DNA of 64,000 nt, taken from positions 4,402,001 to 4,466,000 of the forward strand of contig NZ_CP132343.1 of NCBI RefSeq assembly GCF_040529065.1, written 5' to 3'. The stretch is from Xanthomonas sacchari (GTDB lineage Bacteria; Pseudomonadota; Gammaproteobacteria; Xanthomonadales; Xanthomonadaceae). Shown piece by piece: positions 59,723 to 60,317 of the stretch. Position 1 is the stretch's first letter, and each line of letters starts with the position of its first letter. The notes below the pieces were generated by a model, which searched no databases, was not told the origin of the DNA, and was given only the letters and a program-made list of their open reading frames with translations. Both the position numbers and the translations under genes were made by a program.

Positions 59723-59778
59723 AAGGTTTGAGTTAAGCCCGGCAGCGGAGCAGCTTCGGCTTGAACGAATTGTTAGGC
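59723..59778 (-). repeat. attC-like integron recombination site
   Basis: On the minus strand: GCCTAAC, then AATTCGTTCAAGCCG, a hairpin core (AAGCTGCTCCGCTGCC) and GGGCTTAACTC. This is the standard attC layout with R'', L'' and L' boxes; the terminal R' box (GTTRRRY) is replaced by CTTCGCC. The cassette gene's TAA stop lies within the GCCTAAC box, as is typical of cassettes. Confidence 0.82.
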
Positions 59779-60246
59779 GGTAGCTGCATGTTCAATCTCT
59801 CGAAGTTGCACTTGCCACCAGCCAATCGCCATCGCAAGAACATCCCTGCAATCCTCGCCCTCATAAGGCCCCGCGGCAAGCGGACAGAATAGCTCGTCCG
59901 GCAGCGTTGTCATGGTCATGCCAGGGATGACAACAAAGGCCGCCCGCCCGGACATGAAACCGACCTCATACTCTTTCAAGACGGCGTTACGCTCGCTCTC
60001 AATGAAATTATGAAAGATCTTGTGTTGTTCGCGATCGTCATGCCAGGAAGCCCAAGCTTGCTTTATAGCGATCGAAAGCCCAGGGCTTGTGCGTGAATCA
60101 ACCTTGTCGAGAACATGACCGACCGAACGACAAAGAGCCATTGCAGCTACCCAAGTAATCCGAAAACGCAGAGCATCGCTCTCCAACTCTAGAAACTGGT
60201 GCGCTGCCTCAAGGTCGCCGAGAACTTTGCGTGCGGTTGAGGTCAT
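59773..60246 (-). CDS. Integron gene-cassette protein of unknown function
   Basis: A 157-residue cytosolic-looking protein, MTSTARKVLGDLEAAHQFLE at ATG 60244-60246, 12 bases after the cassette edge. The DNA is visibly poorer in G+C than the genes around it, and codon choice differs, which indicates transfer. The middle has HKIFHNFIESERNAVLKEYE, a pattern seen in uncharacterised small helical proteins of mobile DNA (possibly HEPN-like, weak). The C terminus is Trp-rich (AIGWWQVQLREIE). It probably has no link with its neighbours. Confidence 0.82.
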   Translation of the reverse strand: MTSTARKVLGDLEAAHQFLELESDALRFRITWVAAMALCRSVGHVLDKVDSRTSPGLSIAIKQAWASWHDDREQHKIFHNFIESERNAVLKEYEVGFMSGRAAFVVIPGMTMTTLPDELFCPLAAGPYEGEDCRDVLAMAIGWWQVQLREIEHAATA

Positions 60247-60257
60247 CTTTTTCTGTC

Positions 60258-60317
60258 GCCTAAAACACGAGTTAAGCCGCACCGCGACGCGGGTTCGGAT
60301 TGAATGAATGGTTGGGC
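60258..60317 (-). repeat. Second attC-like site upstream of the cassette gene
   Basis: On the minus strand: GCCCAAC, CATTCATTCAATCCG, a core (AACCCGCGTCGCGGTGCGG) and CTTAACTC, then TTTTAGGC in place of GTTAGGC. The cassette therefore begins TTAGGC as expected. Beyond it (60318-60510) no gene is recognised; that stretch may be the remnant of a previous cassette. Confidence 0.78.

Follow-up and report, generated by a model that had tools for sequence, protein, structure and literature searches.

A probable stranded integron gene cassette between the IclR-family regulator and redoxin genes of Xanthomonas sacchari

Does a gene lying between two attC-like sites, at a chromosomal position where no integrase is in view, represent an integron cassette that was left outside its array? 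The question was raised for Xanthomonas sacchari (NZ_CP132343.1) by a preliminary description, made from the DNA letters alone, which proposed either a small CALIN or a cassette inserted at a secondary site. The locus was analysed within a 64,000-nt stretch of DNA (hereafter the window, 4.402–4.466 Mb on the 4.957-Mb chromosome), in the rest of the genome and in 20 genomes of the genus. Both designations apply to this two-attC CALIN away from ilvD, and the locus is very probably an integron cassette, formerly mobile, that became stranded at a secondary chromosomal site.

A lone gene between two attC sites

All features of the locus lie on the minus strand. An IclR-family regulator gene (window positions 60511–61263; Pfam IclR_C and HTH_IclR) is followed by a 193-nt spacer, attC1 (60258–60317), a gene for a 157-amino-acid protein (59773–60246), attC2 (59719–59778), a spacer of about 310 nt and a gene encoding a Redoxin/AhpC-TSA-like protein (58800–59405; Pfam AhpC-TSA and Redoxin). 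The studied genome groups with those of X. albilineans and Xanthomonas sp. NCPPB 1128; its IclR protein shares 99% identity with that of the latter and 98% with that of Xanthomonas sp. F10. This flank is conserved in 18 of the 20 genomes of the genus.

The 157-codon gene has the organization of an integron cassette, being a lone gene closed by an attC, with its stop codon in the R'' box and a short 5' leader. Its ATG, at 60246, starts 12 nt past TTAGGC and its TAA stop, at 59773, is part of the R'' box GCCTAAC of attC2, both as previously described. The lower GC content that had been pointed out is also real: the gene has 54% GC, against 70% for the window, and 99.6% of windows of the same size are higher (0.4% lower).

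On the minus strand, attC1 reads GCCCAACC...TTTTAGGC (60317–60258; R'' GCCCAAC, R' TTTAGGC) and attC2 reads GCCTAAC...CTTCGCC (59778–59719). They were scored with two covariance models, whose bits are the models' own and not those of IntegronFinder. The first, R1, was built from 12 attCs taken from the X. sacchari genome and two relatives, leaving out both tested sites; since four of these 12 come from the IclR/redoxin junction of relatives, a stricter model, R2, was built from eight attCs at other loci of the X. sacchari genome only. With R1, attC1 scored 45.0 bits and attC2 40.3 bits (E-values of 5e-10 and 1e-8 in the window, 4e-8 and 9e-7 in the whole genome), the third-best match in the window reaching only 10 bits. 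With R2 the scores were 48.8 and 43.7 bits, with no further match at E ≤ 10 within the 64 kb. The two full-length matches are spaced 480 nt apart. Main-array attCs reach 89 bits with R1, a model partly built from them. The two sites are genuine but worn, the crossover G of GTTRRRY being missing from both R' boxes, TTTAGGC in attC1 (G to T) and CTTCGCC in attC2. Loss of this G from the R' box should impair recombination by IntI. Two claims made beforehand therefore stand: the sites are attCs, with full-length scores that are high for both (40–49 bits with R1 and R2) rather than below threshold, and both R' boxes are altered.

The 157-amino-acid protein has a homologue (51% identity) in another genus of the family (genome G059), and a match outside the family but within the class is short and weak; homologues at 31–35% identity are carried by plasmids of Sinorhizobium, Agrobacterium, Sphingomonas and Sphingobium. 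Residues invariant among the homologues include LxRxxGHV...VD and FxxFI...RNxxLK. Assignment to a known defence or toxin family was rejected, Pfam and PADLOC searches being empty and NCBIfam, PHROGs and PDB returning nothing notable, as was a viral origin, with no match among viral contigs. A single-sequence structure model is mostly helical (pLDDT 48, too poor for a structure search). Most likely, the predicted product is cassette cargo of an accessory kind, small and helical; to assign it a regulatory or toxin-like role would be only a guess, and a rather doubtful one.

Other arrays and the same junction in related genomes

The absence of an integrase, claimed for the locus, extends to the entire genome. 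In a search for intI and for other cassettes only the latter were recovered: the main cassette array, downstream of ilvD at 4.684–4.694 Mb and 222 kb from the studied locus, and a second attC cluster, also a CALIN, at 97–104 kb. For the two integron-integrase families searched, the genome gave Xer-level (XerC/D) matches only, the best match to TIGR02249 scoring 73 bits where the cut-off is 265. A complete chromosomal integron has intI and attI beside its array, and no intI was found at this locus or elsewhere in this genome; five of the 20 genomes of the genus have an intI above the cut-off. The preliminary description, which had noted that ilvD is not nearby, missed the ilvD array and the second CALIN that exist elsewhere in the same genome, as well as a conserved 5' extension of attC1 that is common to other cassettes.

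Several observations concern these other loci. In the X. sacchari ilvD array (4684000–4698000) the stretch from ilvD to the first attC contains no intI, and a lone 47-bit attC match (4680024–4680084) lies on the opposite side of ilvD from this array. The cluster at 97000–104500 contains the gene of a 727-amino-acid ATPase with a match (4e-242) to the candidate phage-defence family PDC-S06, and two further genes with no PADLOC match. A broken intI of the related genome G011 (1201455–1202167) contains a stop codon and retains only part of its reading frame.

Evidence of past mobility comes from the ilvD array of another relative, G009 (ilvD 98.7% identical), which holds a broken copy of the studied cassette. 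The two copies are 87% identical across the 100 nt that follow TTAGGC of the R' box and 32% identical across the preceding 80 nt, so that the same unit is present in a second array and the homology sets in at the R' crossover box. Two copies at different loci, homologous from the cassette boundary onwards, are what is expected of units moved by IntI; the G009 copy no longer has its 3' boundary, and it is the 5' boundary alone that is proven. To judge from this comparison, the 157-codon gene cassette was once mobile. In addition, one of the cassettes at the G011 junction has, besides its second copy in G011, relatives at 72–73% identity elsewhere in eight genomes; in X. sacchari this relative, at 4.6977 Mb, lies past the end of the ilvD array by about 4 kb.

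When the junction was compared across the 20 genomes, G009 and G011 were found to have the IclR flank, the attC1 element, the terminal attC and the redoxin flank in common with X. sacchari. Between these conserved ends the cassettes differ, two others being present in G009 and four others in G011. The attC2 site aligns with the terminal attC of both, and the R' box of this terminal site is worn in all three carriers (GATAGGC, GGTAGGC and, in attC2, CTTCGCC). Four relatives (G006, G007, G010 and G013) have at the junction an ordinary gene of 146 codons, frame-broken in G010, and no attC. This gene probably represents the older state, because a relative of it at 54–55% identity also adjoins IclR in G004 and X. 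bonasiae. A motif scan of 40 named genome loci found no attC near IclR. Relatives thus offer junctions that either lack attC or hold other cassettes, and the same gene with the same flanks, which would have been expected everywhere of an ordinary resident gene, is absent there.

The founding insertion point is not visible, because the DNA bordering the island cannot be aligned with the junction of those relatives that carry the 146-codon gene. A 51-nt in-frame resemblance just after the IclR stop was considered as a remnant of the relatives' gene and rejected, direct alignment showing plain flank homology.

The element upstream of attC1

Directly 5' of attC1 lies the conserved tail, of about 85 bp, of a recurring and apparently ORF-less cassette (60319–60404, minus strand). 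This element has 26 matches in 11 of the 20 genomes, the copy at the studied locus included, and 24 of the 26 lie immediately before an attC scoring 25 bits or more (one lies before a 17.7-bit site and one before none). Many copies form the 3' end of cassettes of about 340 nt that show no consistent reading frame and occur several times per array. The core conserved among the aligned copies reads TGTGGCAYRCTC...GGCAGTGCTGGGGAGCAC.

A coding function was rejected, since indels among copies break the frames, and so was a structured RNA, the consensus fold being weak (−4.9 kcal/mol, with double changes at two of nine pairs). Rfam gave no match for the tail, sRNA-Xcc1 included if it is part of the library, and a simple scan found no sigma-70 promoter in it. 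The genus-wide survey of Colombi et al. (2025; PMC12444791) describes a recurring 'empty' cassette that may act as a promoter, is present several times per array, has no consistent ORF and ends in an attC. By description, the tail is probably the 3' end of this cassette, of which, at the studied locus, the tail and attC alone remain. We tentatively propose, as a speculation with a modest chance of being right, that the tail could be a mobile promoter or expression element feeding the next cassette and keeping stranded cassettes expressed and under selection.

Origin of the island

That the two sites are palindromes, REP-like or arisen by chance, on either side of an ordinary gene is in effect refuted. 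The inner stem alone does find weak matches elsewhere in GC-rich DNA, but the full-length 60-nt matches score 40–49 bits, whereas no other match in the window exceeds 10 bits, and the cassette boundary is common to an ilvD array. It is also improbable that a second complete integron, with an intI and attI of its own that were later deleted, gave rise to the island. Its conserved ends and variable middle do resemble an array beside its platform; however, no intI fragment is found at the junction in X. sacchari, G009 or G011, the fragment of the last being about 237 kb away, and intI of Xanthomonas adjoins ilvD in the published account, two species excepted (PMC12444791).

A stronger rival, which we nevertheless consider the lesser possibility, is the acquisition of the whole locus by homologous recombination from a relative, with no local action of IntI. 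The first half of the X. sacchari IclR gene is nearest to that of G011 (98.9%), and the gene after redoxin is 97.7–98.0% identical to those of G009 and G011 versus 93.5–95.0% for the others. By contrast, the second half of IclR and the redoxin gene show no preference for these two genomes, and no two of the three genomes have the same cassette content. Flank identities fit vertical inheritance and later island transfer alike.

For the reading we favour, that of a cassette stranded at a secondary site, the order of events that we infer would be as follows. In an IntI-bearing ancestor, a cassette with the 'empty-cassette' tail and an attC at its end would have entered the IclR/redoxin junction, displacing the gene that relatives keep there or preceding its loss. 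IntI would then have swapped cassettes at the attC sites, leaving three related species with different contents between conserved ends, and the 157-codon cassette would have been drawn from the same pool as those of the ilvD arrays. In the X. sacchari lineage, the later events would have been the disappearance of intI and mutation of the crossover position in both R' boxes, with an intact gene left behind. The locus is now probably locked in place, because intI is absent and the crossover G of both R' boxes is lost. Expression of the gene may be driven from the upstream element or by read-through.

CALINs away from ilvD occur in about half of the Xanthomonas genomes according to the survey, and they have in common with the studied locus at least two attCs of Xanthomonas type, no nearby intI, a position conserved among relatives and cassette genes of undescribed function (PMC12444791). 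The positions that this main text names are at lamG, secF, recD, a NAD(P)/FAD oxidoreductase and an outer membrane protein; IclR/redoxin is not among them, and two positions in X. translucens are left unnamed in the text (PMC12444791). The locus also resembles insertions at attG or other non-classical sites, the cassette lying in the chromosome outside both attI and the main array. Insertion at attG is known from experiments with active IntI, whereas here the founding junction has decayed and allows no match to the attG consensus.

The IclR/redoxin junction thus adds a CALIN position beyond those named in the main text of the survey (PMC12444791) and a comparison in which one junction holds three cassette contents beside relatives without attC. 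It shows a cassette kept outside the main array by a genome without an integrase. The attC-linked tail provides a testable candidate for how stranded cassettes get expressed; if it does act in this way, cassettes far from any Pc promoter would stay expressed and under selection.
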